Made by a program: the position numbers and the translations under genes. This document shows positions 21,390 through 38,172 of a DNA stretch of 64,000 nt, piece after piece (position 1 is the first letter of the stretch; every line of letters begins with the position of its first letter). The stretch lies in NCBI RefSeq assembly GCF_041320595.1, contig NZ_CP166625.1, forward strand, positions 4,710,001 through 4,774,000, given 5' to 3'. The notes below the pieces were generated by a model, which did not search any database, was not told the origin of the DNA, and saw only the letters and a list, made by a program, of their open reading frames with translations. Source of the DNA: Pleomorphomonas sp. PLEO. GTDB taxonomy: Bacteria > Pseudomonadota > Alphaproteobacteria > Rhizobiales > Pleomorphomonadaceae.

Positions 21390-21393
21390 TGCC

Positions 21394-22883: not shown

Positions 22884-23567
22884 TTACCAGGGCACGACGC
22901 GGCCATCATAGCCTATGTGGCAGCCGCTCTCGGCTGCCGTCGCATCATTGATAACCTGTCTGAGACCGACGACCGACTGCGCTGGCGTCAGCTCGCCGGA
23001 AAAGTTGGTCATGCGGGTGGAGACGCGGCCTGGGCGAAGCGCCAGACAGATGCACCCCCAGGGGCGCCATTCGACCGAGAGATTGCGCCAGAGCTGATTC
23101 AGCGCCGCCTTCGAAGCGCGATAGACGAACTGGCGCGGCACATCATAGTCCGCCATGGACGCGGCAAGGCTGGACACCGACGCAAGAACCTTGTGGGAAC
23201 CGGCGCGCAGGTTGGGCTCAAGGAGAGCAGCCAGATGCAGCGGCGCATAGGCGTTGGTCAGCATCGTCGCTTCCCAGTGGTCCCGACGGATGGCCTCCGG
23301 CGGGAGATCCGGGCCAGCGCCGAGGCCGGCATTGAGGATGGCAACGTCAACGGGCGTGCCGGACAGCGATCGGACGGCCTCGGCCGCGCTGGCGTCATCG
23401 AGGGCATCATAGAAAAACTCGGTCGCCTGTGGACCAAGCATGTCGCGCGCGGCGCTGGCCAGCAGCGTCCGGTTCAACATGACGACGTGCCAGCCGTCGG
23501 CCGCATATTGCCGGGCGAATTCGAGGCCGATGCCACGGTTGGCGCCGGTGATGAGTACAGTCGGCAT
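22884..23567 (-). CDS. Short-chain dehydrogenase/reductase
   Basis: A 227-residue classical SDR: the cofactor-binding motif is TGANRGIGLEFARQ, NAGLGAG follows strand 4, S is in ASVSSLAAS and the catalytic pair is YRASK. It lies 18 bases downstream of another SDR of similar size, the two sharing YRASKxxLNxLWRxLxxEWR, so they look like tandem duplicates that have diverged. Their operon is headed by a TTGGTAT/TATTCCAAA operator. Substrate unknown; context suggests a step in a ring-cleavage pathway. Confidence 0.88.
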   Translation of the reverse strand: MPTVLITGANRGIGLEFARQYAADGWHVVMLNRTLLASAARDMLGPQATEFFYDALDDASAAEAVRSLSGTPVDVAILNAGLGAGPDLPPEAIRRDHWEATMLTNAYAPLHLAALLEPNLRAGSHKVLASVSSLAASMADYDVPRQFVYRASKAALNQLWRNLSVEWRPWGCICLALRPGRVSTRMTNFSGELTPAQSVVGLRQVINDATAAESGCHIGYDGRVVPW

Positions 23568-23585
23568 GGGCGGACCTCCACAGTG

Positions 23586-24263
23586 TCACCAAGGCACATC
23601 GCTGCCGTCGTAGCCGATCAGCCGGCCGGCATCGGCCGGGGTCAGGCGCTCGACAACCATCTTCATGCCGGCAACGCTCATTTCCACCGGGATGCCGCGA
23701 TAGCCGGTCATCCGGGTGGCGACCATGCCGGGCCTGAGCAGCACCGCGGTGATACCGATCGACCGCCACTCCATCGCCAAGGCTCGCCAGAGGGCGTTGA
23801 GCCCCGTCTTCGAGGCTCGATAGGTGTATTGGGTGCCCCAGTCGTTGGCGGTAATCGAGCTCATCAGGCTCGACATGGCGGCCGCGACGCGATGCTGGCC
23901 GGCGAGTAGATTGGGTTTCAACGCCCCAGCCAGCGCCAGTGGCGCAAAGCTGTTGGTGGCCAGCACGGCGAGAAAATCCTCCCGCGTCACTTCGACGGGA
24001 GTGGCCTCCAGGTGGATCGCGACGCCGGCATTGGCGATGAGCACGTCGATTGGCCGCCCGCCGAGGCGGGAGACCAGTTCATCGATCGACGACGGGTCCG
24101 TTGCCTCGAGCGGCAGCACCTCCGTCCCCGGCAGCGCCTTAAGCTCGGTCGCCTCGTCCGGGCGGCGGGCTGTGCCGACGATCGACCAGCCAGCCGCCGA
24201 GAACTGACGCGCCAACTCCAGGCCGATGCCGCGATTTGCGCCGGAAATGAGAATGGTCTGCAT
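23586..24263 (-). CDS. Short-chain dehydrogenase/reductase (tandem paralog)
   Basis: 225 residues, with SGANRGIGLELARQF, NAGVAIH and YRASK. The ATG at 24263 is preferred over an upstream ATG at 24332 because it gives the standard N-terminus (MQTILISGANRGIG) behind GGGGGTC. It is the first gene of a two-SDR unit. The operator-like repeat at 24275-24299 lies directly upstream, inside the leader, a repressing position. Confidence 0.88.
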   Translation of the reverse strand: MQTILISGANRGIGLELARQFSAAGWSIVGTARRPDEATELKALPGTEVLPLEATDPSSIDELVSRLGGRPIDVLIANAGVAIHLEATPVEVTREDFLAVLATNSFAPLALAGALKPNLLAGQHRVAAAMSSLMSSITANDWGTQYTYRASKTGLNALWRALAMEWRSIGITAVLLRPGMVATRMTGYRGIPVEMSVAGMKMVVERLTPADAGRLIGYDGSDVPW

Positions 24264-24274
24264 GCTGACCCCCA

Positions 24275-24299
24275 TTTGGTATATCGACGGTATTCCAAA
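24275..24299. promoter_or_regulatory. GntR-type operator copy 1 (SDR promoter)
   Basis: TTTGGTAT (24275-24282) and GGTATTCCAAA (24289-24299) are halves of the recurrent TTGGTATNCCAA element, 11 bases upstream of the SDR start. Confidence 0.6.
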
Positions 24300-24411
24300 G
24301 GACGAAACACGGCAAGTGCTTTGTGGCGGCATCCCAAACGAGGCGCGGCGGCGGTACGCCTTTGCAGATTGGCGTCAGGCCCAGCATCAAAGAGACTGGA
24401 CGATACACCTT

Positions 24412-24432
24412 CGGTATTCTACTGGTATTCCA
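24412..24432. promoter_or_regulatory. GntR-type operator copy 2 (DHDPS-like promoter)
   Basis: CGGTATTCTA (24412-24421) is followed by TGGTATTCCA (24423-24432), two tandem copies about 105 bases before the aldolase gene. Confidence 0.6.
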
Positions 24433-24536
24433 CTTGTTGGCGAGACTGGCCGCGCCGCTTTGTTGCGAACCGACGACGGGCGCGCAGCCGGTCCCCAACA
24501 GCTTTCGCGCCGCGGCGCCCATCCTGGAAAGAGGCC

Positions 24537-25463
24537 ATGTCCCTGATTAATTCCGATAGCCGCGGCGTCTTCGTCATTGCCGTCACCCCCTTTGCCGACG
24601 ATGGCACCATCGACGAAGCGAGCATCGATCGCGTCACCGACTTCTATTTCGAGCAGGGCGCCGATGGCCTCACCATCCTCGGCATGATGGGCGAGGCGCC
24701 AAAGCTCACCCAGACCGAGGCGCTCGCCATCACCCGCCGGACGCTGGGGCGGGCCGGCAACCGGCCGGTGGTGGTGGGCGTGTCGGCGCCTGGCCTCGCG
24801 GCGATCGGCGATCTGACGCGGGCGGTGATGGACCTTGGCGCCGCGGGCGTGATGGTCGCGCCGCCGTCGGTGCTGCGAACCAACGAACAGATCACCGCCT
24901 ACTACGGCGAGGTAATGGAAACCGTTGGCTCCGGCGTTCCGGTGGTGCTCCAGGACTTTCCGCTGTCGACCGGCGTCCAGATCAGCATCGACACGCTCGG
25001 CCGCATCGTCGAAGCGCACAGCGATATCGTCATGCTGAAGCACGAGGACTGGCCCGGGCTGGCCAAGATATCGGCGCTACGCGCCGCCGAGGCGAAGGGG
25101 CGGCGCCGGCTGTCCATCCTGTGCGGCAACGGCGGCATCTTCCTGCCCGAAGAAATCGCCCGTGGGGCCGACGGCGCCATGACCGGCTTCGGCTATCTGG
25201 AGATGATGGTTGAGGTCTGTCGTCTGGCCGGCGCCGGTGAGATGGATCGGGCGCAGGATATTTTCGACGCCTATCTGCCGCTGGTCCGCTACGAGCAGCA
25301 GCCCGGCATCGGGCTGGCGGTCCGCAAGCACGTGCTGAAGCGTCGTGGCGCCATCGCCTCTGCCGCGCAGCGTCGGCCGGGCGCTTTGCTGCCGGCGGCG
25401 GCTGTGGTCGAGGTCGAGCGGCTGATTTCCCGTCAGGAGCGGCGGCTGGCGGCCCTAGGCTGA
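24537..25463 (+). CDS. Dihydrodipicolinate synthase/N-acetylneuraminate lyase family aldolase
   Basis: 308 residues with the class I aldolase (beta/alpha)8 barrel of the DapA/NanA group: VTPFADDGTIDEASIDRVTDFYFEQGADGLTILGMMGEAPKLT, and the Schiff-base lysine in DIVMLKHEDWPG. The usual Tyr of the YN(I/R)P motif is replaced: VVLQDFPLSTG reads QDFP where DapA has YNVP. That loss of the proton-relay Tyr argues against DHDPS itself and for another keto-acid lyase, hydratase or aldolase. It is probably the pyruvate- or keto-acid-producing step of the surrounding pathway. Confidence 0.82.
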   Translation: MSLINSDSRGVFVIAVTPFADDGTIDEASIDRVTDFYFEQGADGLTILGMMGEAPKLTQTEALAITRRTLGRAGNRPVVVGVSAPGLAAIGDLTRAVMDLGAAGVMVAPPSVLRTNEQITAYYGEVMETVGSGVPVVLQDFPLSTGVQISIDTLGRIVEAHSDIVMLKHEDWPGLAKISALRAAEAKGRRRLSILCGNGGIFLPEEIARGADGAMTGFGYLEMMVEVCRLAGAGEMDRAQDIFDAYLPLVRYEQQPGIGLAVRKHVLKRRGAIASAAQRRPGALLPAAAVVEVERLISRQERRLAALG

Positions 25464-25491
25464 TGGCGACGCAGTCGCCGCCGAGCAACGG

Positions 25492-26187
25492 CTATGACCG
25501 GCGGCGACCGAGGAGAAAGTCGATGATCGCGTCGCGAACATTGTCGAGGTGCAGACCCATCAGCCGACGCGACCGCTCGGGATCATCGCCCATCACCGCG
25601 TGAATAAGCTCGATGTGCTCGCTGGCGCCGGGAAGCAGGCGATTGGGGATGCGGGCTGTGTTGAAAAGGTGGGTACGCCGCCGGAGATCGCGGATTGAGG
25701 CCGTCAGCAGCGGATTGCCCACAGCGTCGGCAATGGTGCCGTGGACCATTTCGTCCACCGCCCAATGATGAGCCGGCGTAATCTCGGTGACGTGGACGAG
25801 ATCGTCGATAGCCTTCTCGACGGCGGCCGCATCTTCCGCGCTGACGCGACCAGTCGCCCGCGCCGCCGCTTCCATTTCCAGGATACGGCGCAGGTCGAGC
25901 AAATTGACGTAGTTCTCCACGGTGACATCGGCCACGTAGAGCATGCGGCCCTGGCGGCGGGTGATCAGCTGTTCCGTCTCAAGCCGGCCCAGCGCCTCGC
26001 GTACCGGAGTGCGCGAGATCGACAACATTTCGGCAAGTCGGCGTTCCTGCAGCACAGAGCCGGCGGGCAGACGGCCGTTCAACATGTGGTCGAGGATTTG
26101 GCCGTAGGCATATTCGCTGAGGGTAACGTCGGTGGCGGCAAAATCCGCTCCTCGAGTGTCCGTGGCGGCGCTCGTCACTGTAGTCAC
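25492..26187 (-). CDS. GntR-family transcriptional regulator, FCD subfamily
   Basis: 231 residues from a GTG at 26187. Winged HTH: YGQILDHMLNGRLPAGSVLQERRLAEMLSISRTPVREALGRLE. The C-terminal FCD ligand domain has the metal/acid-binding residues spread over LLDLRRILEMEAAARA, DEMVHGTIADAVGNPLL and IELIHAVMGDD. It is divergent from the nitrilase-like gene, with a TGGTATTCCA element on each side of the gap. It is similar to the second regulator at 35312-35983 but not identical. A repressor role, released by a pathway acid, is likely. Confidence 0.9.
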   Translation of the reverse strand: MTTVTSAATDTRGADFAATDVTLSEYAYGQILDHMLNGRLPAGSVLQERRLAEMLSISRTPVREALGRLETEQLITRRQGRMLYVADVTVENYVNLLDLRRILEMEAAARATGRVSAEDAAAVEKAIDDLVHVTEITPAHHWAVDEMVHGTIADAVGNPLLTASIRDLRRRTHLFNTARIPNRLLPGASEHIELIHAVMGDDPERSRRLMGLHLDNVRDAIIDFLLGRRRS

Positions 26188-26226
26188 TTTCCTGCCTTTC
26201 CCGTCAGCATGTCATTGGTCGATCGC

Positions 26227-26236
26227 TGGTATTCCA
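26227..26236. promoter_or_regulatory. GntR-type operator copy 3 (gntR promoter)
   Basis: TGGTATTCCA lies 40 bases upstream of the regulator start at 26187, consistent with autoregulation. Confidence 0.6.
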
Positions 26237-26328
26237 CTAGTGCGCCAAACATTTGGTGACGGCAAGTCCGCAGTGGTCCGGATGGCATTTTCCGACTGAC
26301 AACGCCGGCCATTGACGCGCAATCATTC

Positions 26329-26340
26329 TTGGTATTCCAA
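26329..26340. promoter_or_regulatory. GntR-type operator copy 4 (nitrilase-like promoter)
   Basis: TTGGTATTCCAA, a near-perfect palindrome, lies 56 bases upstream of the hydrolase ATG. ACCATTGG at 26347-26354 may be a further half-site. Confidence 0.65.
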
Positions 26341-26395
26341 TGGAACACCATTGGCATGGAAATTGATTCCCCGCAACCCGAACGGAGTAGTGGAA

Positions 26396-27436
26396 ATGGC
26401 AATCACCTCGTGGCGCGCCACGTGCATTCAAATGAAGAGCCTGGTGGCAAGCGACGCGACGAGCCGGGAGGAAGCGACGGCGATCATCGAGGCCAATCTT
26501 GCCAATGCCATCGGCAAGATTGAACTGGCCTGCGCCTCACCCACCCCTCCCCGGCTGGTGGTGCTGCCGGAGTTCGTCTTTCAGGGACCGCCTCGCGCCA
26601 CGCCTGTGAGTGCCTGGATCGAACGCGCCTGTGCACCCATCCCCGGGCCGATCACCGAGCGTCTCGCCGAGGTGGCCGTCCGGCTCGGTATCTATATCGC
26701 CGGCAACCACTTCGAGGTCGATGCGCAGTGGCCCGATCGCTACTTCAATTCGTCGCTCCTGCTCGACCCGAAGGGTGAGGTCATCCTGCGCTACCGGCGT
26801 ATCAACACCGCTAGTTGGACGTCGCCGCATGACATCTTGAGCCAGTATCGGGCGGCCTATGGTGAGGACGGCATCTTCCCCGTTGTCGACACCGAACTCG
26901 GGCGCCTAGCGATCTTTCCGTGTGGCGAGGTACTGGTGCCTGAGCTGTCGCGGGTGTTGATGATGCGAGGCGCGGAGGTCTTGCTGCATCCATCGAACGA
27001 GCCGGCCAATCGGCGATCAGACGCCGCCAAGATCTGCCGGGCGGCCGAAAACATGTGCTATCTGATCTCGGCCAACGTCGCCGGCGGTATCGGCTTTTCG
27101 AGCAACGGCGCCGAGCGTGGCGGCCATTCGCAGATCGTTGACTACAACGGCGATTTCATCGCCTTCGACGACGGCGAGGACGAGAGCGTCGCCACCTCGG
27201 CAATGATCGACGTCGAGGCGCTGCAGGCGGCACGGCGGGACACCGGCATGGGCAACGGGCTGCTGCGCAGTCGGTTCGAGATGTATCGCGGCTACTATGG
27301 CGCGGCTGAGTTTTATCCGCCGGATGGACTGGCGGAAAAGTCGATCGAAACGGCTGCTGACCTAAGCCCGGTGCATGAGAGGGCGATCGCCAACCTCATC
27401 AGGGCCGGCGTTCTGAGAACCGACCGCAAATCCTGA
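26396..27436 (+). CDS. Carbon-nitrogen hydrolase (nitrilase superfamily), copy 1
   Basis: 346 residues, an amidase/formamidase-like member of the nitrilase superfamily. The Glu is in VVLPEFVFQ and the nucleophilic Cys in IFPCGEVLVPELSR. The third catalytic residue, normally Lys in YRK, reads YRRIN here, so Arg occupies that place. It shares most of its length with the protein at 34048-35091 (for example RAAENMCYLISANVAG and RFEMYRxxYGAAEFYPPD). The start is at 26396 after AACGGAGTAGTGGA. It probably hydrolyses an amide or carbamoyl bond of the pathway's nitrogen compound. Confidence 0.85.
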   Translation: MAITSWRATCIQMKSLVASDATSREEATAIIEANLANAIGKIELACASPTPPRLVVLPEFVFQGPPRATPVSAWIERACAPIPGPITERLAEVAVRLGIYIAGNHFEVDAQWPDRYFNSSLLLDPKGEVILRYRRINTASWTSPHDILSQYRAAYGEDGIFPVVDTELGRLAIFPCGEVLVPELSRVLMMRGAEVLLHPSNEPANRRSDAAKICRAAENMCYLISANVAGGIGFSSNGAERGGHSQIVDYNGDFIAFDDGEDESVATSAMIDVEALQAARRDTGMGNGLLRSRFEMYRGYYGAAEFYPPDGLAEKSIETAADLSPVHERAIANLIRAGVLRTDRKS

Positions 27437-27945
27437 CGCACAACGCCTTCCCCTGAACCGCCGCCCCCATCCGCCCTTCCCGGCGCGGAATCCGGTCGCC
27501 GCGGCGCACCTCTACCTTACTGCACAACGCCCTCGGCCGCTGGCGGGAGCTCCTCGTTGCCGCCAAACGCCGGGACTAAGTATTTTTTCTTAATTTAGGC
27601 ACGAGATCTGCATCAGGGTAACGATCCCGGCCGGTCGGAAGGCGGCGACCGACGTTTGATGCCGCAAGGCGCCAGCCAGGGCGTTCCCGCCGCCAATAGG
27701 CGGATACGGCAACGGACCTCGTATATCTCGCGCCACCTGGGCAGCGCCTGGAGCCTTGCCGTCACGGCGCGAAACCAAATCAAAGGAAACTGCCGACGTA
27801 CCCGAACTGCCCAATGCTGCCCCAAATGCCCATTTCAGCGCCACAAGCACGACCTGCCTAACAGTTCGACATCTTGGTTGACAGCTGATATTCCTCTGGC
27901 ATACCATCTGAATGCCACGCGAGATGGCGGATAACGGGGAACCAA
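27437..27945. other. Non-coding interval with operator copy 5
   Basis: 509 bases without a convincing gene; codon statistics in all frames look random. The right end holds TGGCATACCA (27897-27906), 40 bases upstream of the binding-protein gene, flanked by TGATATTCC and TGAATGCCA at similar spacing. No terminator hairpin was recognised. Confidence 0.5.
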
Positions 27946-28953
27946 ATGAGACACATGCTAGTGCGCGCCATGGCGCCAGTCATTGGAATGGCCATATTGG
28001 GAATCGCGAGTGCCAGCCAGGGCCTCGCGGCAGAGCCGACAAAAATCAACCTGCGTCTGGCCTGGATTGCCGGCGCGGTCGACATTCCGCTGTTTGTCGC
28101 CGCCAGCAAGGGCTACTTCAAGGACGAGGGGCTCGACGTCAACATCGTCGATGGAAACGGATCGACCGGCACCATCCAGGCGGTCGGCAGCGGCGACTTC
28201 GAGATCGGCATCGCCGGCCTCGGCGCGCTGGCCCAGGCCCAGCAGGCGGCGGGCGCCGACACCCTGATCGCGGTGGCCGGCCTGCTGCAGAAGGATCCCA
28301 CGTCGGTCATCAGCCTCAAGGGATCGGGGATCACCCAGCCGAAGGACATCGAAGGCAAGCGCTTCGGCACGGACGCGGCCAACTTCGAAGACGGCATGAT
28401 CAAGGCTTTCGCCGAGGCCAATGGCGTCGATTTCTCCAAGGTCAACGTCATCATCATCAATGGCAACAACGACCGCGTGGCGCTCCTAAAGGGCGATGTA
28501 GATTTCATCAACGGCTGGGCCAATCCGGACGGCGACAAGGTGGCCGCCAAAGCACCGATCGAAAAGCCGCTGCTGTTTGCCGACTACGGCGTCAATCTGC
28601 TGGGCAGTTCGGTGATCGTCCGCAAGGACTTCCTCGCCAAGAACGAAGCGGCGGTGCGCGGATTCCTGGCCGCCCTCCAGAAGGGCAAGGCCGCGACCGT
28701 CGCCGATCAGAATGGCGCCTTCGCCCTCTTCATGAAGGCGCGGCCGGATTCGGACGAGGCGGAAATCAAGCTCGAGATGAGGGTGATGCCCCAGTACGAG
28801 CACACCGCCGCTTCGGCCGGCAAACCCTACGGCTGGGTCGCACAGTCGGACGTCGAGCAGACCATCTCCCTCCTGGAGAAATACAGCGGCATGAAGCCCG
28901 GCCTCAAGCCGGACAGCATCTACAACGGCAGCTACCTGCCAGCCAGCAACTAA
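27946..28953 (+). CDS. ABC transporter substrate-binding protein, NMT1/SsuA type
   Basis: 335 residues. A Sec signal peptide (MRHMLVRAMAPVIGMAILGIASASQGLAA) is followed by a NMT1/THI5-like fold: LRLAWIAGAVDIPLFVAASKGYFKDEGLDVNIVDGNGSTGTIQAVGSGDFEIGIAG. This group binds sulfonates, nitrate, pyrimidine precursors, aromatic acids or similar organic ions. It heads the importer operon, with an SDR between it and the ATPase, and has an operator in its promoter. The ligand is not readable but should be the pathway substrate. Confidence 0.9.
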   Translation: MRHMLVRAMAPVIGMAILGIASASQGLAAEPTKINLRLAWIAGAVDIPLFVAASKGYFKDEGLDVNIVDGNGSTGTIQAVGSGDFEIGIAGLGALAQAQQAAGADTLIAVAGLLQKDPTSVISLKGSGITQPKDIEGKRFGTDAANFEDGMIKAFAEANGVDFSKVNVIIINGNNDRVALLKGDVDFINGWANPDGDKVAAKAPIEKPLLFADYGVNLLGSSVIVRKDFLAKNEAAVRGFLAALQKGKAATVADQNGAFALFMKARPDSDEAEIKLEMRVMPQYEHTAASAGKPYGWVAQSDVEQTISLLEKYSGMKPGLKPDSIYNGSYLPASN

Positions 28954-29019
28954 TCGCGAACAGTGTCTGCGGGGCGGTGCAACGCGCCGTCCCGCCCGTC
29001 TTCGCCCGTGGATGATAAG

Positions 29020-29799
29020 ATGGACCTCCAACTCAGCAACCGCCATGCTCTCGTTCTCGGCGCCAGCCAGGGGCTGGGCCTTGCCGTTGCCCGGGCGCTG
29101 CTCGCCGAGGGGGCGCTTGTCACCCTGTCGGCTCGCTCGGCCGAGCGGTTGGAAGCCGCAAGGGCCGCCCTGCCCGGCGACATGGCCAAGCGTTGCCGCC
29201 TCGCGCCGGCCGAACTCGGCACAGCCGGCGCCGTCGAGGCCATCCTGTCGGCCCTCGAGGGGTCCGTCGACATCCTGGTCAACAATACCGGCGGCCCACC
29301 GCCGGGCACCGCGTCCGATGTGTCCGCAGCGGCGCTGTTGGCCGAATTCGACCGCATGGTGGCGCCGGTGATCGCGCTGACGACGGCCCTGCTGCCCGCC
29401 ATGCGCGCGCGTAAGTGGGGCCGAATCCTGACCATAGCCTCAAGCGGCGTCGTCCAGCCGATCCCACATCTGCCCCTGTCGAACACGCTACGCTCCTCGC
29501 TCGTCGGCTTCATGAAGACGCTGGCCGGCGAAGTCGCAGCCGACGGCGTCACCGTCAACATGCTGCTGCCGGGCCGCATCGCCACAAGCCGCGTGGCCTC
29601 GCTCGACGAGGCGGCGGCCCGACGGAGCAGCCGCAGCGTCGAGGACGTCGCCCGCGACGCCGCCGCCAGCATTCCCGCCGGTCGCTACGGCACGGCCGAA
29701 GAGTTCGGCGCCATCGCCGCCTTCTTCGCCGGAGCGCCGGCCTCCTACGTCACCGGCAGCCTGATCCGCATCGATGGCGGCATCATCCGGTCAATCTGA
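29020..29799 (+). CDS. Atypical SDR-family oxidoreductase
   Basis: 259 residues with a normal nucleotide-binding start (LVLGASQGLGLAVARALL) and NNTGGPPPG in place of NNAG. Where classical SDRs have YxxxK, this protein has LSNTLRSSLVGFMKTL: Tyr and Lys are both absent. This matches a divergent SDR subgroup (SNxLRxxxxGxxK). It might be a binding or isomerase-type protein rather than a simple dehydrogenase. It lies inside the transporter operon between the binding protein and the ATPase. Confidence 0.82.
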   Translation: MDLQLSNRHALVLGASQGLGLAVARALLAEGALVTLSARSAERLEAARAALPGDMAKRCRLAPAELGTAGAVEAILSALEGSVDILVNNTGGPPPGTASDVSAAALLAEFDRMVAPVIALTTALLPAMRARKWGRILTIASSGVVQPIPHLPLSNTLRSSLVGFMKTLAGEVAADGVTVNMLLPGRIATSRVASLDEAAARRSSRSVEDVARDAAASIPAGRYGTAEEFGAIAAFFAGAPASYVTGSLIRIDGGIIRSI

Positions 29800-29866
29800 A
29801 CTGTCCGGTCCGGTCGACACCTGACGACCGGAACGACCATGAGGGAGTGGGGCGCATCCCATCGAG

Positions 29867-30703
29867 ATGATGAACGTCATGCCAGATACTTCGACGCTGC
29901 GCCCGGAACGGGACATGCCGGACCGCCCACGACACGTTTCCATCGAGGGCATCCACAAATCATTCGACGGCCGCAACGGCCGCGTCCAGGCGTTGGAGGA
30001 CGTCAGCCTCAAGATCCGGCGGGGCGAATTCGTCTCGGTACTGGGGCCGTCGGGCTGCGGCAAGAGCACGCTATTGATGTTGCTGGCCGGTCTGGCGCCG
30101 GCGACATCGGGCGCCATCCTGGTCGACGACGAGCTGATCGACGCCCCCTATGCCAAGGCCGGCATCGTGTTCCAGCAGGACGTGCTGCTGGAATGGCGCA
30201 CCGCCATCCAGAACGTGCTGATCCAGGCGGAGATCCGCAAGCTCGACCTCGGCGAGGCGCGCGAGCGAGCACGGGCGCTGCTGCGCATGGTGTCGCTGCA
30301 GGACTTCGAGGATGCCTACCCCAAGGAACTGTCGGGCGGCATGCGCCAGCGCGTTTCCATCTGCCGGGCGCTGCTGCACAAGCCGCCGTTGCTGCTGATG
30401 GACGAGCCGTTCGGCGCGCTCGACGCCATGACGCGCGATCAGTTGCAGATCGATCTGCTGCGCCTTTGCGCCGACAACGACATGACGGTGTTCTTCATTA
30501 CCCATTCGATCACTGAGGCCATCTTCGTCAGCGATCGCGTGGTGGTGATGTCGCCTCGCCCGGGTAAGATCGAACGCATCATCGACATCGATCTGCCACG
30601 TCCGCGTCGCCTGTCCATGCGCGAGGACCGGCGCTTCCTCGAATACATCCATGAAATCACTGCCATCTTTAAGAGTCTCGGCGTGTTCAGAGAGGAGTAT
30701 TGA
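29867..30703 (+). CDS. ABC transporter ATP-binding protein, SsuB/TauB type
   Basis: About 278 residues (in-frame ATGs at 29867, 29870 and 29879 leave the exact start open). Walker A GPSGCGKST, signature LSGGMRQRVSICRALL, Walker B LLLMDEPFGALDA, H-loop ITHSITEAIFVSDR. The EAIFVSDRVVVMSPRPG block is typical of nitrate/taurine/sulfonate-type importers. Its stop is 3 bases before the permease gene. Confidence 0.93.
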   Translation: MMNVMPDTSTLRPERDMPDRPRHVSIEGIHKSFDGRNGRVQALEDVSLKIRRGEFVSVLGPSGCGKSTLLMLLAGLAPATSGAILVDDELIDAPYAKAGIVFQQDVLLEWRTAIQNVLIQAEIRKLDLGEARERARALLRMVSLQDFEDAYPKELSGGMRQRVSICRALLHKPPLLLMDEPFGALDAMTRDQLQIDLLRLCADNDMTVFFITHSITEAIFVSDRVVVMSPRPGKIERIIDIDLPRPRRLSMREDRRFLEYIHEITAIFKSLGVFREEY

Positions 30704-30706
30704 GCC

Positions 30707-31552
30707 ATGTCCGCTATCGCCGACATCCCCCCCGCCGACGCGTCCGCCAACAGCGAGAAGCCAGCTCGTCCCAATATCGCGGTCCGGATCCTTGGCGCCG
30801 TGCCGCCGGTGCTGTGGACGGTCCTCGTGCTGGTGTTCCTGTGGGAGATCATCTGCCGGATCGCTGAAGTGCCGCCATTCATCCTGCCTGCGCCCTCAGC
30901 CATCGCCGAAGTGTTCGGCAACTACTGGCACCGACTACTGCCCAATGCGCTGGTGACTCTCAGCGAGGTGCTCATCGGCTTCGCCCTCGCCGTGGCGATC
31001 GGCATCCCGCTCGCCGTGCTGATCGCCTATTCGTCGATCATGGAACGAACCGTCTATCCGCTGATCGCCGCCAGCCAGACCGTCCCCAAGGTCGCCATCG
31101 CCCCGCTGCTGCTGACCTGGTTCGGTTACGGCATGACGCCCAAGATCGTCATCGTCGTCCTGCTCAGCTTCTTTCCGGTGGTCATCAACACGGTGATGGG
31201 CCTCAAGTCGGTCTCGCGCGAGATGATCTATCTTTCGCGCTCGATGGGCGCATCGGGCTGGCAGAGCTTTTGGAAATTCCGCCTCCCCCACTCCCTGCCC
31301 AGCATTTTCGGCGGACTCAAGCTGGCCACGGTGATGTCGGTGATCGGCGCCATCGTCGGTGAATTCATCGGTGCCGACAGCGGTCTGGGCTACATCATCG
31401 TCGTGGCCGGCGCCAATTTCGACATCGCCCGCCAATTCGCCGCGGTCATCCTGATCTCGCTGATCGGCATCGTGTTCTTTGCCGTGCTGGAGCAGCTCGA
31501 ACGGATCATGATCCCCTGGCGCGCCCGGTCCAAGGTGGAGGCCGGCGGCTAA
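30707..31552 (+). CDS. ABC transporter permease, SsuC/TauC type
   Basis: 281 residues with six predicted membrane helices and the EAA-like loop SREMIYLSRSMGASGWQSFWKFRLPHSLPSIFGGLKLA. It completes the binding protein-ATPase-permease set of 27946-31552. The N-terminal 25 residues are a polar cytoplasmic tail. A convergent hairpin follows the stop. Confidence 0.93.
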   Translation: MSAIADIPPADASANSEKPARPNIAVRILGAVPPVLWTVLVLVFLWEIICRIAEVPPFILPAPSAIAEVFGNYWHRLLPNALVTLSEVLIGFALAVAIGIPLAVLIAYSSIMERTVYPLIAASQTVPKVAIAPLLLTWFGYGMTPKIVIVVLLSFFPVVINTVMGLKSVSREMIYLSRSMGASGWQSFWKFRLPHSLPSIFGGLKLATVMSVIGAIVGEFIGADSGLGYIIVVAGANFDIARQFAAVILISLIGIVFFAVLEQLERIMIPWRARSKVEAGG

Positions 31553-31581
31553 CGCCGAACTTGGCCGAACGATTTCACCAA

Positions 31582-31619
31582 ACCACCACGCCCTGGACGC
31601 AAGTCCGGGGCGCTGTGGT
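31582..31619. terminator. Bidirectional terminator-like hairpin between permease and reductase
   Basis: ACCAC...GTGGT encloses GCCCTGGAC-gcaa-GTCCGGGGC, giving a long stem with one mismatch zone in the 68-base gap between two convergent genes. No long T-run is present, so its strength is uncertain. Confidence 0.55.
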
Positions 31620-31620
31620 T

Positions 31621-32580
31621 CTAAAGGTCGAGCACCAGAAGATCGCTCTTGGCACCAGAGCAGCAGATCATGATCACCTTGCCGGACGCTTGTTCGCGCG
31701 GCGACAGGACGTTGTCCTTATGGTCGGGAACGCCGTCGAGCACCCGCGTCTCGCAGGTGCCGCAGACACCCGAGCGGCAGGAATAGGCGACGCGAATGCC
31801 CGCCTCCTGCAGTACTTCCATGATCGTTCGGCCCGCCGGCACGACGATGGTGCGGCCGGACCGCTTCAGCATCACGGTGAATTCGCCGCTCGGCCGCGCA
31901 GCGGTACCGGCAAAATGCTCGACATGGATGCGGTCGGGATCCCGCCCGGCGGTCGCCGACTTGAAAGCGGCCAGCATCGGCTCCGGACCACAGCAATAGA
32001 GGTGGGCTTGCGGGCTGGCGGCACCGATAGCCGCCGCCGCGTCGAGATAACGGCCGGCCTCGTCGTCGAAGTGCAGCGTGACACCACCCGGATTGGCAGC
32101 GGCCAGAACTAATATTTCCGGCAGGAAGGCGGCGGCGGCGCGGCTGCGCGCCGCGTAAACGAGGCGCCAGCAATGGCCGAGCGCCTTAAGGCGCCGCACC
32201 ATGCCCAATATCGGCGTAATGCCGATGCCACCAGCCAGCAACAGGGTTTCCTCTGCATCCTCTGCCAGGCGGAAAGTGTTCAGCGGCGGCGTCACGTCAA
32301 TGAGGTCCCCCACCCGCGCCACATCGCAGAGATGGGCGGAACCACCGCGACTGTCGGCTTCGCGGTTGACGGCGATGAGATAGCGGTCGGCCGGTCCAGT
32401 GGTATTGATGATGGAGTAGCTGCGAGTGAATCCACCGGGAAGCGCCAGATCGATGTGGGCGCCTGCTTCCACCGGCGGCAGGACGCGTCCGTCCTCTGCG
32501 ACGAGTTCGAACGATCGGACGGAGTCGGCCTCGTAGCGGATGGCTGCGATACGAAGGCGCAGCGGTACGCGGTCGGTCAT
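31621..32580 (-). CDS. Phthalate-dioxygenase-reductase-like FMN/2Fe-2S oxidoreductase
   Basis: 319 residues with the class IA order FMN domain - NAD domain - C-terminal plant-type [2Fe-2S]. The flavin motif is RSYSIINTT, the NAD motif GGIGITPILGMVRRL and CCGPEPMLAAF, and the cluster ligands SCRSGVCGTCETRVLDG plus a distal Cys. It passes electrons from NADH to the Rieske oxygenase encoded just upstream, 104 bases away. Family members include VanB, PobB and phthalate dioxygenase reductase. Confidence 0.92.
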   Translation of the reverse strand: MTDRVPLRLRIAAIRYEADSVRSFELVAEDGRVLPPVEAGAHIDLALPGGFTRSYSIINTTGPADRYLIAVNREADSRGGSAHLCDVARVGDLIDVTPPLNTFRLAEDAEETLLLAGGIGITPILGMVRRLKALGHCWRLVYAARSRAAAAFLPEILVLAAANPGGVTLHFDDEAGRYLDAAAAIGAASPQAHLYCCGPEPMLAAFKSATAGRDPDRIHVEHFAGTAARPSGEFTVMLKRSGRTIVVPAGRTIMEVLQEAGIRVAYSCRSGVCGTCETRVLDGVPDHKDNVLSPREQASGKVIMICCSGAKSDLLVLDL

Positions 32581-32684
32581 GGGGTCGGGTCCTTGACTTG
32601 GTCGCCAGGGCCTCGCCCCTTGGCGGCATGGAAAATCCGGCGCGTTTCAGCCGCGCCGGATCGAAATACACTCGGCTCGGAAGG

Positions 32685-34019
32685 TCACTCGGCGGCCCGG
32701 ATGTTGGGCCGGTAGCCCTTGACGGCAGCCATCTTCTCTTCATAGCCGTCAAGCCAGTCCGTACCCTTGGGGACGATGATGTCGCCACCACGGGCGTCGC
32801 GGCAGTATTCCGGATGGTCGACCACCTCGGGCAACTTTCGATTGTCGCGCCAGTCGATGGCAGCGTCGAGCATGACGCGCCGCGTCAGGATGACCATGCG
32901 ATCGGACGCCGCCAGATGTTCGAGGGTGCGGTCGACGACGGGCCCCATCGACTCCTGGATGGCCTGGTCTTGCAGCGGGATGCCGACGATGCCGGTATAG
33001 CTGTCACCATTGCGCTGCCACTCGCGATCGATGCCGTAGTCGTTGCTCCGATCCTTGGCCGGGCGCCAGCGCCCCTTCCAGTCGGTCGTGGTCGGTAGAT
33101 ACTCGACGGGCCGCGCCAGTCCATTGACCGGCGTGCCGTCCTTGTATTTCAGAGACTTCTTGCCACCACCGGTCGCGCGACTGAGGTCGATGTTGAAGAT
33201 CATCGTGCTCTCGTCGTCGATCGGTACCCAGGCATTGACCGTGCGGCTGGTCTCGAGATGGCCGCCACCGGGATAAGTGACCCAGAAGGGAAAGATGTAG
33301 GAGGCGTAGCGCTGGTGCTCGGTGCCTTCATAGGCGTCGCGCTGGGCTGAATACATGGTTCCGAACGGCGCTACGGTGACGTTGATCTTGGGCGCCTTTT
33401 CGGTGACGGTGAAGACCTCGGGATCTGACAAGTCGAGCCTTTCGCCGTCAATGCCGCCGGCGTGCAGGAAGCCGAGATGAGAGGTGTCGATGTCGCCCTC
33501 GAGCGCCTGCATGTAGTTGCAGTCACGATGAGTGAGGGCGATGTTACGGTCGTCCCCCTCGCCCATGATCGCCTCGATCTCCGGCAGCGGCGGCGGGTTT
33601 TCCTGGCGTTCGCCCATATAGGCGAACACTAGGCCGCCACTTTCCTGCACGCGGTAAGCAAAGGCAGGCGTACCGGCCGGATAGCGATTCTTGTCCTCAA
33701 GGTTCGGCTGATCGAGACACTTGCCCGTCACGTCGAACTTCCAGCCGTGATAGGCGCAACGGATGCCGCCCAACTCGTTCCGGCCGAAGAACAGCGAGGC
33801 ACAGCGATGAGGACAGCGGTGATCGAACACGCCGACGCGCCCCTCGGTGTCGCGGAAGGCGATCAGCTTCTCGCCCAGGATCATCAGACGGACGGGGTCG
33901 CCATCGGCCTTCAGCTCCGAAGACTTGCAGACCGGCAGCCAGAACTGGCGGAACAGGTCGCCCATCAGCGTGCCCTTGCCGACGCGGCAGAGCTGTTCGT
34001 TTTCTTCTGCGGTGATCAT
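32685..34019 (-). CDS. Rieske non-heme iron ring-hydroxylating oxygenase, phthalate 4,5-dioxygenase group
   Basis: 444 residues, single-subunit oxygenase. Rieske ligands are C69-x-H71 (CPHRC) and C88-x2-H91 (CAYHGWKF); mononuclear iron ligands are in EGDIDTSHLGFLH. The N-terminal MITAEENEQLCRVGKGTLMGDLFRQFWLPV is typical of the phthalate-dioxygenase/vanillate-demethylase group. It would introduce dioxygen into, or demethylate, an aromatic or N-heterocyclic ring acid. AGGAGAACTTCC precedes the ATG. It sits between the second nitrilase paralog and its own reductase. Substrate not determinable. Confidence 0.93.
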   Translation of the reverse strand: MITAEENEQLCRVGKGTLMGDLFRQFWLPVCKSSELKADGDPVRLMILGEKLIAFRDTEGRVGVFDHRCPHRCASLFFGRNELGGIRCAYHGWKFDVTGKCLDQPNLEDKNRYPAGTPAFAYRVQESGGLVFAYMGERQENPPPLPEIEAIMGEGDDRNIALTHRDCNYMQALEGDIDTSHLGFLHAGGIDGERLDLSDPEVFTVTEKAPKINVTVAPFGTMYSAQRDAYEGTEHQRYASYIFPFWVTYPGGGHLETSRTVNAWVPIDDESTMIFNIDLSRATGGGKKSLKYKDGTPVNGLARPVEYLPTTTDWKGRWRPAKDRSNDYGIDREWQRNGDSYTGIVGIPLQDQAIQESMGPVVDRTLEHLAASDRMVILTRRVMLDAAIDWRDNRKLPEVVDHPEYCRDARGGDIIVPKGTDWLDGYEEKMAAVKGYRPNIRAAE

Positions 34020-34047
34020 GGAAGTTCTCCTGTGAATTCGGGATAGG

Positions 34048-35091
34048 TCAGGCGTTGGTCAGCGGCTCGAGCACACGCTGTCGCTCGAGGTTGGCGCGCG
34101 CCATCTCGACGGCGGTCCGGGTATCCTGCTCCCCCGCCATGGGAACGGTCAGGAACTGGTCCGGCGGATAGAATTCGGCCGCTCCGTAGAAGGGCCGGTA
34201 CATCTCGAAGCGGGCACGCAGCAGCGGATTGTGAGTGCCGGTGTCGGCACGGCGGTCGGCGCGCAGCCGCTCGATGTCGATCAAGCCGGTGACGCCGACG
34301 CCCTCCCCGGCCTCTTCTTCAAAGGCGACCGTGTCGCCGAAATGGTCGAGGATGTGCGAACGGCCGCCGAGGATGGAATTGTCCGGCGAAAAGCCGATCG
34401 GACCGGCGACGTTGGCTGAGATCAGGTAGCACATGTTCTCGGCCGCGCGGGCGACCTTGGCCGCCTCCTGGCCAACAGTGAACTTGGAATTGGTGGGATG
34501 CAGGATCACCTCGGCGCCCTGCATCATCATGCAACGGGCCACCTCCGGCACGTTGATCTCACCGCAGGGGATGAGCGCCAGACGGCCGAGTTCGGTGTCG
34601 GCGACAGGGAAGACCTGATCGGACGGCGTCACGGCCAGATAGTCGGTCATGAAGTCGTGCACGGACGGGAAGGCCGCGGTGTTGACGCGGCGGTAGTTGA
34701 GAATCACCTCGCCATTGCGATCGATGAGGAAGGACGAGTTGAAATAGCGGCCAGGCCATTCCGGCGGCGCCTCGAACAGGTTGCCGGCGATGTAGATGCG
34801 CTGCCGCCGGGCCAGCGCCTGCAGCGGCTCGGTGAGCGGGCCGGGAATGGTGGCGCAGGCCCAATCGATCCACTCGGCCACCGGCCGGCCGAGCGGCGGG
34901 CCCTGCAAGGCGAATTCGGGAAACACCACGAGGTCCGGCTTGGCGGAAGAGGCTGAGGCGGTCTCGATCAGGCGGATCAGCCGATCGAGATTGCCGGCGA
35001 TGACCGCCCTGGCGGCGGCGGCATCGGCGGCCTGGGTCGCCCTTTCGCTACGCATCTGAATGGCGGTCGCCCGCCAGGGTCGAATGGCCAT
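34048..35091 (-). CDS. Carbon-nitrogen hydrolase (nitrilase superfamily), copy 2
   Basis: 347 residues, paralog of the hydrolase at 26396-27436. Glu is in VVFPEFALQG, Cys in LIPCGEINVPEVAR, and again the Lys position reads Arg (NYRRVN). The ATG at 35091 follows GGAAGGAGATTTCG. It is first in the leftward unit nitrilase - oxygenase - reductase. Two related hydrolases in one island suggest two successive amide or carbamoyl hydrolyses, or two substrates. Confidence 0.85.
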   Translation of the reverse strand: MAIRPWRATAIQMRSERATQAADAAAARAVIAGNLDRLIRLIETASASSAKPDLVVFPEFALQGPPLGRPVAEWIDWACATIPGPLTEPLQALARRQRIYIAGNLFEAPPEWPGRYFNSSFLIDRNGEVILNYRRVNTAAFPSVHDFMTDYLAVTPSDQVFPVADTELGRLALIPCGEINVPEVARCMMMQGAEVILHPTNSKFTVGQEAAKVARAAENMCYLISANVAGPIGFSPDNSILGGRSHILDHFGDTVAFEEEAGEGVGVTGLIDIERLRADRRADTGTHNPLLRARFEMYRPFYGAAEFYPPDQFLTVPMAGEQDTRTAVEMARANLERQRVLEPLTNA

Positions 35092-35127
35092 CGAAATCTC
35101 CTTCCGTCGGGCGGCTGTATTTGCACG

Positions 35128-35145
35128 CCAATGGTATACCATTGG
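35128..35145. promoter_or_regulatory. GntR-type operator copy 6 (perfect 18-base palindrome)
   Basis: CCAATGGTATACCATTGG is a perfect palindrome, 36 bases upstream of the nitrilase-oxygenase-reductase unit. It is the best-matching copy in the island. A further half-site (ATTGGTATAA) runs on to its right. Confidence 0.75.
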
Positions 35146-35211
35146 TATAAAGTGTTTGCGCAACCTTGCCAAGCCCGCTTGCGAATGAATGTCAAATTTC
35201 ATCGTCCGCCA

Positions 35212-35239
35212 CTGGAATACCGGCCGTGGATGGCATACC
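35212..35239. promoter_or_regulatory. GntR-type operator copy 7 (second gntR promoter)
   Basis: CTGGAATACCGG (35212-35223) and TGGCATACC (35231-35239) lie 70-100 bases upstream of the regulator gene at 35312. Confidence 0.55.
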
Positions 35240-35311
35240 GCAGCCATCCCAAATGTCTTCCAACGCCACACGTCACGGGCTATGACATTGGCCGAACGCA
35301 AGGGGGACGAG

Positions 35312-35983
35312 ATGAGCGCGATTCTGAACACGGGCCTGCTGCAGGCGGACAAGCCGAACCTGACCGAGCAGGTCTATGAGCAGCTCGTCGACATCCTGAT
35401 CCGTGGCGAGCTGCGGCCCGGCGACGTGATCGTCGAACGGAAGATGGCCGAGCGTCTCAATGCGTCGCGGACGCCGGTGCGCGAGGCTCTCGGCCGGCTG
35501 GAAGCGGAAGGCCTCATCTACAAGCAGCCCAATCGCGGCGTCACGGTAAGCCCGTTCTCGACCGAGGCTTTCGTGGAACTGCTCAACGTGCGCCAGCTCC
35601 TCGAGGCGGAAGCGGCACGGCTGGCCGCCGGACGCATTCCCTCCGAGCGCGTGGCGAGCATTCGCGCTTCGATCGCCGCTTTGGGTGAATTGCCATCGCC
35701 TACGCTGGCGGAGATCTGGGAAGTCGACAACGCGCTGCATGGCGAGATCGCCGACGCCGCCGGCAACCGGCTGCTGGCGGCAATGATCCGCGAACTCCGG
35801 CGCCGCACCCACGTCTTCAACGCCTATCGCAACCCGGTGCGGCCGAAATTCAGCGCCGAGGAGAACACCGCCCTGCTCGACGCGGTGGCGAGCGGCGACG
35901 AGGCGCGCGCCCACGACGCCATGCGCAGCCACATCGAGGGCGTCAAGACTGCCATCATCGACAAGCTCGCCGGCATCCGCTGA
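35312..35983 (+). CDS. GntR-family transcriptional regulator, FCD subfamily (second)
   Basis: 223 residues from the ATG at 35312 (behind AAGGGGGACGAG; an ATG at 35282 is also in frame). Winged HTH: VYEQLVDILIRGELRPGDVIVERKMAERLNASRTPVREALGRLEAEGLI. The FCD domain contains DNALHGEIADAAGNRLLA and an acid/metal pocket like that of the first regulator, with which it shares RELRRRTHxFN. Both proteins could read the TTGGTATACCAA palindrome. Convergent with the amidohydrolase gene, 10 bases between stops. Confidence 0.9.
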   Translation: MSAILNTGLLQADKPNLTEQVYEQLVDILIRGELRPGDVIVERKMAERLNASRTPVREALGRLEAEGLIYKQPNRGVTVSPFSTEAFVELLNVRQLLEAEAARLAAGRIPSERVASIRASIAALGELPSPTLAEIWEVDNALHGEIADAAGNRLLAAMIRELRRRTHVFNAYRNPVRPKFSAEENTALLDAVASGDEARAHDAMRSHIEGVKTAIIDKLAGIR

Positions 35984-35993
35984 GCGCGCGCCG

Positions 35994-37343
35994 TTAGCCT
36001 CGCCGCACGAAGCGGCCATGGCCAACGGCGTCGGCGGCTACCTGTTTGCCGTCCCAGACGCGCCGGCCGCGTACATAGGTCGCCGTCGGCATGCCGGTGA
36101 AAGTCGCCCCGTCATAGCAGCTCCAGCCCGCCCCTTCCGGCGCTGTCGACGCGTCGAACACGTGGTCGCCGGGCTTGAGCACCGTCAGATCGGCATCAAA
36201 GCCCGGCGCAAGGCGCCCCTTGCGCGACAGACCAAAGAAGCGCGCCGGCCGGTCGCAGAGATAGTCGGCGGTAAGCTCTGCCGCGGCCTCGACACCCTTG
36301 CGGGCTGCCGCCGCGGTGAAGAAGGCCGGCAGCAGGGTTTCGAGGCCGGGCATGCCGGCAGCGGCGTCGAAGATCGACGTCACATCCTTGCGGGCAAGCG
36401 GCCAGGCACTGTGATCGGACGACACGAAGGCGACACCGCCGTCTTCGAGCACTTGCCACAGGCGCTCCCGCTCGCCGGCGCGGATAGGCGGGTTGACCTT
36501 CAGCCGGCCGCCCCAGCGCTGCATATCGACTTCGGCGTCGAAGGTGAGGTAGTGGACGCACATTTCCGCCGTCGCCCGATGCCCGCGTACTCGGTAGTCG
36601 GTGACGAGCTCGAAGCCGTCGGCCAGTGATATGTGGACGATGTGGGCGTGGCCACCACTGGCAGCGCCAAGCTCCATGAACGTCGCGGTGGCGGCCAGCT
36701 CGGCGACCGGCGGTCGCGACGGCGCGTGGAACTCTGGGCCGACCAGACCAGCGGCCTTGAAGCGAGTGGTGGTCGCGGCGACGATCTCCTGGTCCTCGTT
36801 GTGCAGTCCGAGCGGCAGGTCGCTGGTCGCCAGCGCATCGAGCAGGACCAGAGCCGCGGCGTTGCCGATGCGGGGAAAGCGGTCCGGGTGCGCCTCGAAA
36901 CTGGAAATCTTGAACGCGGCGACGCCGCCGGCCATCAGGTCACGGACGTCGCCTAGGTCCGGCTCCCTGGGGACCGTGCCGTAGAGCGCAACATCGCAGA
37001 CGGCGAGGCGATCGATCGCTGCTACCTTTTCGGCGAGGACGGCAGCGGTCGTCACCGGCGTCGGATGGTCGTAGGGCATGTCGACGATGGTGGTTACGCC
37101 GCCAATGACCGCCGCCCGCGTCGTTGGCGCCATACCGGCAAAGCCGATCTGGCTGCCGGCATGGGTCTGGCCATCGACAATGCCGGGCAGCACGAAGGCG
37201 TCGCCATAATCGATCACGTCCGCCGCCGACGGCCGCTCGCCACAGCCGATGGCAGCGATGCTGCCGCCGGACACGGCGATCCAGCCGGCATCGATGAGTC
37301 CGGCCGGCGTTACCAGACGTCCGGCGACCACGAGATCAAACAT
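35994..37343 (-). CDS. Cyclic amidohydrolase (dihydroorotase/hydantoinase/allantoinase type)
   Basis: 449 residues, a type III amidohydrolase barrel that opens cyclic amides. N-terminal metal motif VDGQTHAG (the first His of DxHxH is Gln, as in many rhizobial dihydroorotase-like proteins), the carbamylated Lys in VAAFKISSFEAHP, metal His in HAHIVHIS, and the Asp of SSDHSAWP. The ATG at 37343 gives the family start MFDLVVAGRLVTPAG. It probably opens an N-heterocyclic product of the Rieske oxygenase, before the nitrilase-type enzymes hydrolyse the chain. Confidence 0.88.
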   Translation of the reverse strand: MFDLVVAGRLVTPAGLIDAGWIAVSGGSIAAIGCGERPSAADVIDYGDAFVLPGIVDGQTHAGSQIGFAGMAPTTRAAVIGGVTTIVDMPYDHPTPVTTAAVLAEKVAAIDRLAVCDVALYGTVPREPDLGDVRDLMAGGVAAFKISSFEAHPDRFPRIGNAAALVLLDALATSDLPLGLHNEDQEIVAATTTRFKAAGLVGPEFHAPSRPPVAELAATATFMELGAASGGHAHIVHISLADGFELVTDYRVRGHRATAEMCVHYLTFDAEVDMQRWGGRLKVNPPIRAGERERLWQVLEDGGVAFVSSDHSAWPLARKDVTSIFDAAAGMPGLETLLPAFFTAAAARKGVEAAAELTADYLCDRPARFFGLSRKGRLAPGFDADLTVLKPGDHVFDASTAPEGAGWSCYDGATFTGMPTATYVRGRRVWDGKQVAADAVGHGRFVRRG

Positions 37344-37429
37344 GTTTCCACCCCTTGTATTCCGCCCGTTTGGCTGGCCGGTCATCGCGGTTTGGCGCGG
37401 CATTGAAATGGCGTGCACTTGGCATTCTT

Positions 37430-37441
37430 TTGGTGTACCAA
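37430..37441. promoter_or_regulatory. GntR-type operator copy 8
   Basis: TTGGTGTACCAA is a perfect palindrome between the divergent amidohydrolase (37343) and NIPSNAP (37558) genes. TTGGCATTC at 37419-37427 may be an extra half-site. Confidence 0.65.
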
Positions 37442-37557
37442 GCAGAGACCCGTTTGCATAGCCGTCATTCCGACGGTTCCGCCTCGCAACGGAGCCGCCG
37501 CGCGGGACACCGACCGGTGGCCGTGCCGACCGGGACCACCACCTGCTGGGACACCCG

Positions 37558-38172
37558 ATGCTTTACGACCTGACGATCTTGCAGCTCCTTCCCAACACCC
37601 TCGGCGCCGTCCTGCCGATCCTGCCGGAGACCTATCGAACATTCTCGAAGACTGGTGTCGCGCTCGGCGCTTTCTCGTGTGAATTCGGCGAGCTCAACCG
37701 CTTCGCCTTCCTGACGGCCTACGACAGCGTTGAGGCTCTGGTTGCCGAGCGGGCGCGGCTGATGACCACCGACGACGCCTACGGCATCGGCCGTCATATC
37801 GGCGGCATCGTCTCCACCGCCTTCAAACCGCTGTCGTTTGCCAAGCCGATGGTGCCGGGAAACTATGGCCCGTTCTACGAGATCCGCAGCTATACGTTGG
37901 CACCCGGCGGGCTTGCCGAGACCGAGACGGCGTGGAGCAAGGTGATCGATCGCCGCCACGAGATGTCGCCGCTGCTCACCATCATGGGGTCGATCGAAGA
38001 GGGGCCGCAGAAAATGGTGCACATCTGGCCCTACAAGACGATCGAGGAGCGGCAAAAAGCGCGGGCGCAAGCGAGCAAGGAAGGCATCTGGCCGCCGCCG
38101 GGCGGCTCGGGCCAGTTGACAGCCCTCAAGTCCGAGTTGTTCGTCGCCACCGCCTTCTCGGACCTGAAATGA
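37558..38172 (+). CDS. NIPSNAP family protein
   Basis: 204 residues made of two ferredoxin-like NIPSNAP repeats. The first is MLYDLTILQLLPNTLGAVLP through FLTAYDSVEAL, the second FYEIRSYTLAPGGLAETETAW through HIWPYKTIEERQKAR. NIPSNAP genes are common next to aromatic and ring-cleavage pathways, but their chemistry is undefined. ATGA overlap joins it to the broken RidA gene that follows. Confidence 0.85.
   Translation: MLYDLTILQLLPNTLGAVLPILPETYRTFSKTGVALGAFSCEFGELNRFAFLTAYDSVEALVAERARLMTTDDAYGIGRHIGGIVSTAFKPLSFAKPMVPGNYGPFYEIRSYTLAPGGLAETETAWSKVIDRRHEMSPLLTIMGSIEEGPQKMVHIWPYKTIEERQKARAQASKEGIWPPPGGSGQLTALKSELFVATAFSDLK

Follow-up and report, generated by a model that had tools for sequence, protein, structure and literature searches.

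What controls a compact block of catabolic genes whose intergenic gaps carry the same short palindrome? We addressed this question in a window of 64,000 nucleotides from Pleomorphomonas sp. PLEO (GCF_041320595.1, contig NZ_CP166625.1, 4,710,001-4,774,000), the whole stretch analysed here, which holds a gene block of ~13 kb (the island) from a genome of 5,476,363 bp (5.48 Mb). The initial annotation had placed a single palindromic operator before every transcription unit of this island, with two FCD-type GntR regulators inside it, and had read the arrangement as a closed local regulon. All the protein families that it named were found by Pfam. The genes identified comprise two GntR-FCD regulators (GntR1 and GntR2), an ABC transporter, a Rieske oxygenase and the corresponding reductase, an amidohydrolase (AMH), two C-N hydrolases (CNH1 and CNH2), a DHDPS-type aldolase, and SDRs. 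We consider it likely that the island forms a closed local regulon, in which the operators would be bound by GntR1, GntR2, or both, and the genes would be repressed until a pathway compound releases them. Supporting this proposal are the intergenic exclusivity of the motif, a profile built without the window that matched the island alone, the position of the operators before the units, and their retention in other genera.

All eight positions proposed for the motif carried it or a degenerate form, and all were intergenic under the start codons that we chose; longer open reading frames (ORFs) starting with TTG would cover some of them. The exact 10-base core, TGGTATNCCA on one strand, occurs at 24423, 26227, 26330, 27897, and 35132. 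The core at 26330 sits within a perfect 12-mer starting at 26329, and the core at 27897 reads TGGCATACCA on the + strand. One-mismatch cores were found at 24288 (CGGTATTCCA, with TGGTATATCG 11 bp to its left), at 37431 (TGGTGTACCA), and in the pair at 35213 and 35231 before gntR2 (8/9 at each site). The predicted operators precede the SDRb-SDRa, DHDPS, GntR1, CNH1, SBP-SDRc-ABC-permease, CNH2-oxygenase-reductase, and AMH/NIPSNAP units (SBP, binding protein; Table 1). The initial observation is confirmed and its reading as a local regulon is supported; the operator unit had to be redefined as dyads every 11 bp, and the gntR2 pair proved weak. Allowing up to two mismatches, we counted 20 occurrences of the 12-mer in the window where 5.3 were expected, and none of 100 shuffles reached 20; palindromes were scored on both strands in this count, and 8 of the rows come from outside the island.

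The exact core was then counted in the whole genome. It occurred at 21 places (22 matches), compared with 14 for a reversed-pattern control. The five places in the island were all intergenic, and the 16 outside were all within predicted coding sequence. These coding calls were made on 1.5-kb flanks at each side with our own codon-usage caller, trained on the island genes, rather than with a published gene finder. The intergenic exact cores are thus confined to the island, and the motif is not equally frequent across the genome.

In a second genome-wide approach, we built a sequence-only profile of 34 bp from an ungapped alignment of 33 sites, which came from the islands of eight other genomes and included none from the window. 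One or two cores per gap were picked by us, and locus L035 was omitted as a near copy of L034. Also unused in training were the sites of genome G242 (L043, 3398, 3554, 15518, and 16669), the molybdenum hydroxylase sites of G278 and G293, and second cores such as L033 11758. The search scored the best 150 of 591 first-look candidates and, at E up to 10, returned nine matches, all in the island. Six operators were matched (35121, 27887, 26327/26330, 24413, 37420, and 24277); the gntR1 operator at 26227 was absent at this threshold. With the filters off, the 16 core loci outside the island gave 24 matches, the best at 11.1 bits, and with default filters none. A window search with the filters off and E up to 1 placed 2 of 18 matches outside the island (7.2 and 6.4 bits). 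By position weight matrix (PWM), seven island operators scored 16.3-36.1 against a maximum of 15.0 in a 400-kb sample of their own genome (20 segments, 20 kb each). The core columns alone separated less well, as one background site tied with three island cores at 16.8. Within the limits of these scans, the operators are exclusive to the island in their own genome.

To follow the operators beyond this genome, related islands were searched. Among 297 genomes of the order, CNH2 at E up to 1e-60 recovered its own genome and G242, G250, G278, and G293; six genomes of the same genus gave no match in this search. Five further loci were found in the genome collection, in Roseisalinus antarcticus, Celeribacter persicus, Pseudooceanicola sp. 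HF7, and two Maritimibacter metagenome-assembled genomes. Among these nine related islands, the oxygenase is 84-87% identical in eight and 73% identical in G242. Its search recovered its own genome and five more among 385 genomes of the class (49-52%), its own and one more among 398 of the phylum, and four plasmid records, all below 60% identity.

A core of at least 8/9 was present in 34 of 35 gaps, five of them from the window, and the operators are kept at homologous promoters in other genera. By gap type, the counts were 6/6 for CNH1/GntR1, 8/9 for SBP (G250 has a 7/9 match), 9/9 for NIPSNAP, 10/10 for CNH2 or oxygenase/GntR2, and 1/1 for SDRb/DHDPS. The 35 gaps leave out the CNH1 copy of G250, the G242 gaps except oxygenase/GntR2, and the CNH1/GntR1 gaps of L034 and L035, which fall at locus ends. 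For comparison, such a core was held by 3 of 149 predicted gaps of at least 120 bp in a sample of the own genome and by 584 of 35,000 length-matched random windows (1.7%). Second sites in the gntR2 gap recur in L033, L034, L035, G278, G293, and G250. Of 76 profile matches in the nine island-bearing genomes, 72 lay on the island or its contig, a count that is partly circular; matches outside the training set also fell on islands, for example in the CNH1/GntR1 gaps of G300 and G301. That the motif is a chance or dispersed repeat has a negligible probability: the core is short, and one 9/9 site does occur in the 400-kb background, but this explanation is contradicted by the confinement of intergenic cores to the island, by the independent profile, and by the operators kept at homologous promoters.

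The operator is better described as phased dyads than as one palindrome. It comprises a central dyad, TGGYATNCCA, and weaker dyads at -11 and +11 bp. In an offset test on 40 sites, the dyad consensus peaked at +11 (5.17 of 8, z 4.4) and -11 (4.12 of 8, z 3.0), and the next offset reached z 1.2. The eight window sites alone gave z 3.9 and 2.6 at +11 and -11, with 1.7 for the next. The test set left out L035, window site 26227, and other second cores; because the genomes are related and hence not independent, the z values describe the pattern and are not probabilities. Among the training sites, each flanking dyad was better kept in its outer half than in its inner half, both on the right (C at +18 in 30/33, G at +13 in 26/33) and on the left (G at -9 in 25/33, C at -4 in 21/33).

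The position of these dyads relative to promoter elements bears on the sign of regulation. A TTGAC box starts 18-25 bp before the core in 6/6 CNH1 promoters and 6/8 SBP promoters, so that the core lies on the expected -10 or abuts it. In 9/9 CNH2 promoters, a TTG box identified by eye lies 29-32 bp before the core, and the core falls just after the -10. The SDRb start is 13 bp from the operator at 24277..24297. A site on or just after the -10 is in a position typical of repression; from this geometry we infer repression by occlusion of the promoter. An activating role of the GntR proteins is unlikely, given the place of the core on or just after the presumed -10 at the CNH1, SBP, and CNH2 promoters. 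Under repression, one or both of the FCD-type proteins GntR1 and GntR2 would bind the central dyad and the flanking dyads one helical turn (11 bp) away, the bound protein would block transcription initiation at the island units, and binding of a pathway compound by the FCD domain would release it. Two sister repressor-like proteins would, in this way, probably switch the block on and off together.

Both candidates contain a GntR winged helix-turn-helix (PF00392) and an FCD effector domain (PF07729). They fall on either side of a fully supported branch (100/100) and therefore probably diverged before the island spread. The recognition-helix sequence SRTP[VI]REAL was common to all 17 proteins compared. 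The metal ligands of FCD domains are Asp-His-His-His, and some FCD proteins bind no metal. The EH histidine of this domain was present in 8/8 GntR1 proteins and missing from the aligned column in 9/9 GntR2-type proteins, two of which (L031 and G242) have a histidine nearby. By alignment, GntR1 and GntR2 are paralogues alike in helix core and different in effector domain. The stretches read from G242 and G250 showed a regulator of the GntR2 type only (GntR1 elsewhere was not sought), and the operators are kept; GntR2 alone may therefore be enough for operator control. This observation favors GntR2 as the sole binder, with GntR1 drifted to another role or set of sites, a possibility that we hold tentatively and consider somewhat unlikely in view of the identical helix core in 17/17 proteins and of the same operator in 6/6 GntR1/CNH1 gaps.

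We compared the putative regulon with known systems. In the portion of the FadR-subfamily survey available (PMC4494728), operators consist of TKGT/ACMA boxes with GT and AC 2-3 nt apart, and weaker boxes lie 7-12 nt from the site center. The island core TGGTATACCA has GT and AC 2 nt apart and fits this consensus (PMC4494728, same portion). The likeness extends to the GntR winged helix with FCD, the GT/AC palindrome with 2-nt spacing, the regulator genes adjoining operator-bearing genes, and the weaker boxes beside the main site. By these sequence features, the system fits the known type of FadR-subfamily local regulon. Unlike what that part of the survey describes, the island holds two diverged paralogues that share one helix core, and its flanks are whole dyads 11 bp away on both sides, whose better-kept outer halves lie 13.5 bp from the center, beyond 7-12 nt (PMC4494728).

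Against the NCBIfam model of NanR, GntR1 scored 44.1 bits and GntR2 63.8 bits, and the cut-off of 260 was not reached. The predicted island regulon includes a DHDPS-family gene, like the NanR regulon, in which nanA is the DHDPS-family counterpart. According to the available part of the NanR study (PMC8012715), three dimers of E. coli NanR bind a (GGTATA)3 operator cooperatively. The island shares with this system an FCD regulator and GGTAT half-sites repeated along one operator; however, its dyads are palindromic and phased by 11 bp, whereas the NanR repeats are direct (PMC8012715, same part). A literature search with the core sequence gave no match on a bacterial regulator, by title, among the matches listed, and a search with the gene combination found no description of the island and only an unrelated title.

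Several results weigh against the closed regulon. The genome-wide profile search missed one site of 11.1 bits, inside a predicted gene (L005), which is comparable to the two lowest-scoring of the six operators (11.2-11.3 bits) and below the best (21.2). The PWM score of the gntR2 pair is within the genome background, and at E up to 2 the profile did not match the gap before the G250 CNH1 copy. The NIPSNAP, GntR2, DHDPS, and SDRb sites showed no consistent -35-like box. Finally, eleven island-free relatives (genomes of the same genus or family lacking a CNH2 match) gave five weak profile matches in 3 of the 11, with a best E of 0.298. A reading by an unrelated regulator encoded elsewhere was also considered, as the GntR link is based on position, consensus, and co-conservation. 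We regard this as very unlikely: the motif fits the FadR-subfamily consensus and co-occurs with the island and its GntR genes, and the island-free relatives give weak matches at most. The closed local regulon under GntR control is thus the reading that we prefer.

With regard to the pathway, no window protein was above cut-off among the NCBIfam matches listed. The best NCBIfam family of AMH was ErtD, a hydantoin-5-propionate amidohydrolase (NF058538; 478.1 bits), and its PDB neighbor was an L-hydantoinase structure. The binding protein is similar to THI5 and to a formylaminopyrimidine-binding protein, ranked after an unnamed solute-binding protein, and the C-N hydrolases are similar to aliphatic amidase, formamidase, and N-carbamoyl amino acid hydrolases. 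The deaminase-type amidohydrolase of relatives was far under every cut-off among the matches listed. In G278, a molybdenum hydroxylase of the xanthine dehydrogenase family (L036:501-4414) follows an exact core, and its large subunit scored 1292.6 bits against a xanthine dehydrogenase cut-off of 849.5; the same FAD/Fe-S subunit is encoded in G293, again downstream of a core (L039:1251-5050). These cores suggest a larger regulon in G278 and G293, although neither was a profile match at E up to 2 and, in G278, the longest ORF at this locus covers the core. Taken together, the likenesses of AMH, the binding protein, the C-N hydrolases, and the molybdenum hydroxylase indicate, with modest confidence, that the island imports and degrades an N-heterocycle or a cyclic ureide-like compound.

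Catalytic positions were also compared. The AMH proteins of the islands have, in 7/7 cases, glutamine (DGQTH) in place of the first histidine of the DxHxH metal motif; this substitution and the score under the equivalog cut-off of 600 set AMH apart from ErtD. A dihydropyrimidinase, the eighth protein in the alignment, keeps this histidine, and the other amidohydrolase motifs of AMH look kept. CNH1 and CNH2 have YRR in 15/15 island proteins, whereas aliphatic amidase, formamidase, and N-carbamoyl amidohydrolase have YRK, whose lysine is catalytic; the PEF glutamate and CGE cysteine are retained. As these substitutions affect expected catalytic positions, the chemistry of the AMH and C-N hydrolase steps may differ from that of the named relatives. 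Two candidate pathways were set aside. Homarine catabolism was dropped, literature searches having listed no paper that treats its genes by title. For ergothioneine catabolism, AMH is nearest ErtD but under its cut-off, no other ergothioneine family was among the NCBIfam matches listed, and the literature search returned unrelated titles only.

Table 1. Predicted operators and genes of the island, in window coordinates.
Feature	Position	Strand	Basis and details
Operator before SDRb-SDRa unit	24277..24297		Dyads 24277, 24288 (11 bp apart); profile 11.2 bits; PWM 20.9
Operator before DHDPS-type aldolase gene	24412..24432	+	Dyads 24412, 24423; profile 12.2 bits; PWM 21.7
Operator before gntR1	26227..26236		Exact core; profile 9.4 bits (window search); PWM 16.3
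Operator before CNH1	26330..26350	+	Dyads 26330, 26341; profile 16.1 bits; PWM 26.1/29.3; TTGAC box 18 bp before core
Operator before SBP-SDRc-ABC-permease unit	27886..27917	+	Dyads 27886, 27897, 27908; profile 17 bits; PWM 30.0; TTGACA 19 bp before core
Operator before CNH2-oxygenase-reductase unit	35121..35152	-	Three dyads centered on 35132; top genome match, 21.2 bits, E 0.001; PWM 36.1
Weak candidate pair before gntR2	35213..35240	+	35213, 35231; 8/9 each; profile 8.6 and 6.6 bits; PWM within genome background
Operator between AMH and NIPSNAP	37420..37440		Dyads 37420, 37431; profile 11.3 bits; PWM 20.7
SDR pair (SDRb 23586-24263, SDRa 22884-23567)	22884..24263	-	Pfam; mutually 45% identical
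DHDPS-type aldolase/synthase	24537..25463	+	Pfam PF00701
GntR1, GntR/FCD regulator with FCD EH histidine	25492..26187	-	Pfam, alignment
CNH1, C-N hydrolase	26396..27436	+	Pfam PF00795
NMT1-type binding protein (SBP), SDRc, ABC ATPase, permease	27946..31552	+	Pfam
Rieske oxygenase (32685-34019) and its reductase (31621-32580)	31621..34019	-	Pfam
CNH2, C-N hydrolase	34048..35091	-	Pfam; 55% identical to CNH1
GntR2, GntR/FCD regulator without EH histidine	35312..35983	+	Pfam, alignment; 45% identical to GntR1
AMH, cyclic amidohydrolase nearest ErtD/L-hydantoinase	35994..37346	-	Pfam, NCBIfam 478 bits (cut-off 600), PDB
NIPSNAP-family protein	37558..38172	+	Pfam; adjoins AMH or GntR2 also in related islands

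Immediately upstream of the island, at 20745-22608, lie a DRAT gene (dinitrogenase reductase ADP-ribosyltransferase) and a sigma-54 activator gene. The separate CNH1 copy of G250 (L042) stands ~200 kb from the rest of its island, beside a deaminase-type amidohydrolase and near a carboxyltransferase-domain gene and an M24 peptidase. In the Rhodobacteraceae islands L084-L087, the profile also matches near genes that do not belong to the core set. Among these genes are an M20-type amidohydrolase, another NMT1-type transporter in L087, and a dihydropyrimidinase in L085.

A more far-reaching proposal is that the array of three dyads, phased by the helical turn, co-assembles two ancient FCD paralogues with different effector pockets and would act as a two-input switch for an undescribed pathway with altered catalytic residues in AMH and the C-N hydrolases, shared by separate alphaproteobacterial families; we rate this combination as unlikely. 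For the biology of these bacteria, the shared operator allows the members of a catabolic pathway to be defined from sequence alone, and the literature searches found no description of this pathway. The conserved operator and the two diverged FCD sensors offer a direct route to the pathway substrate, and the island is a clean test case for why two putative repressors that share a helix core are retained side by side.

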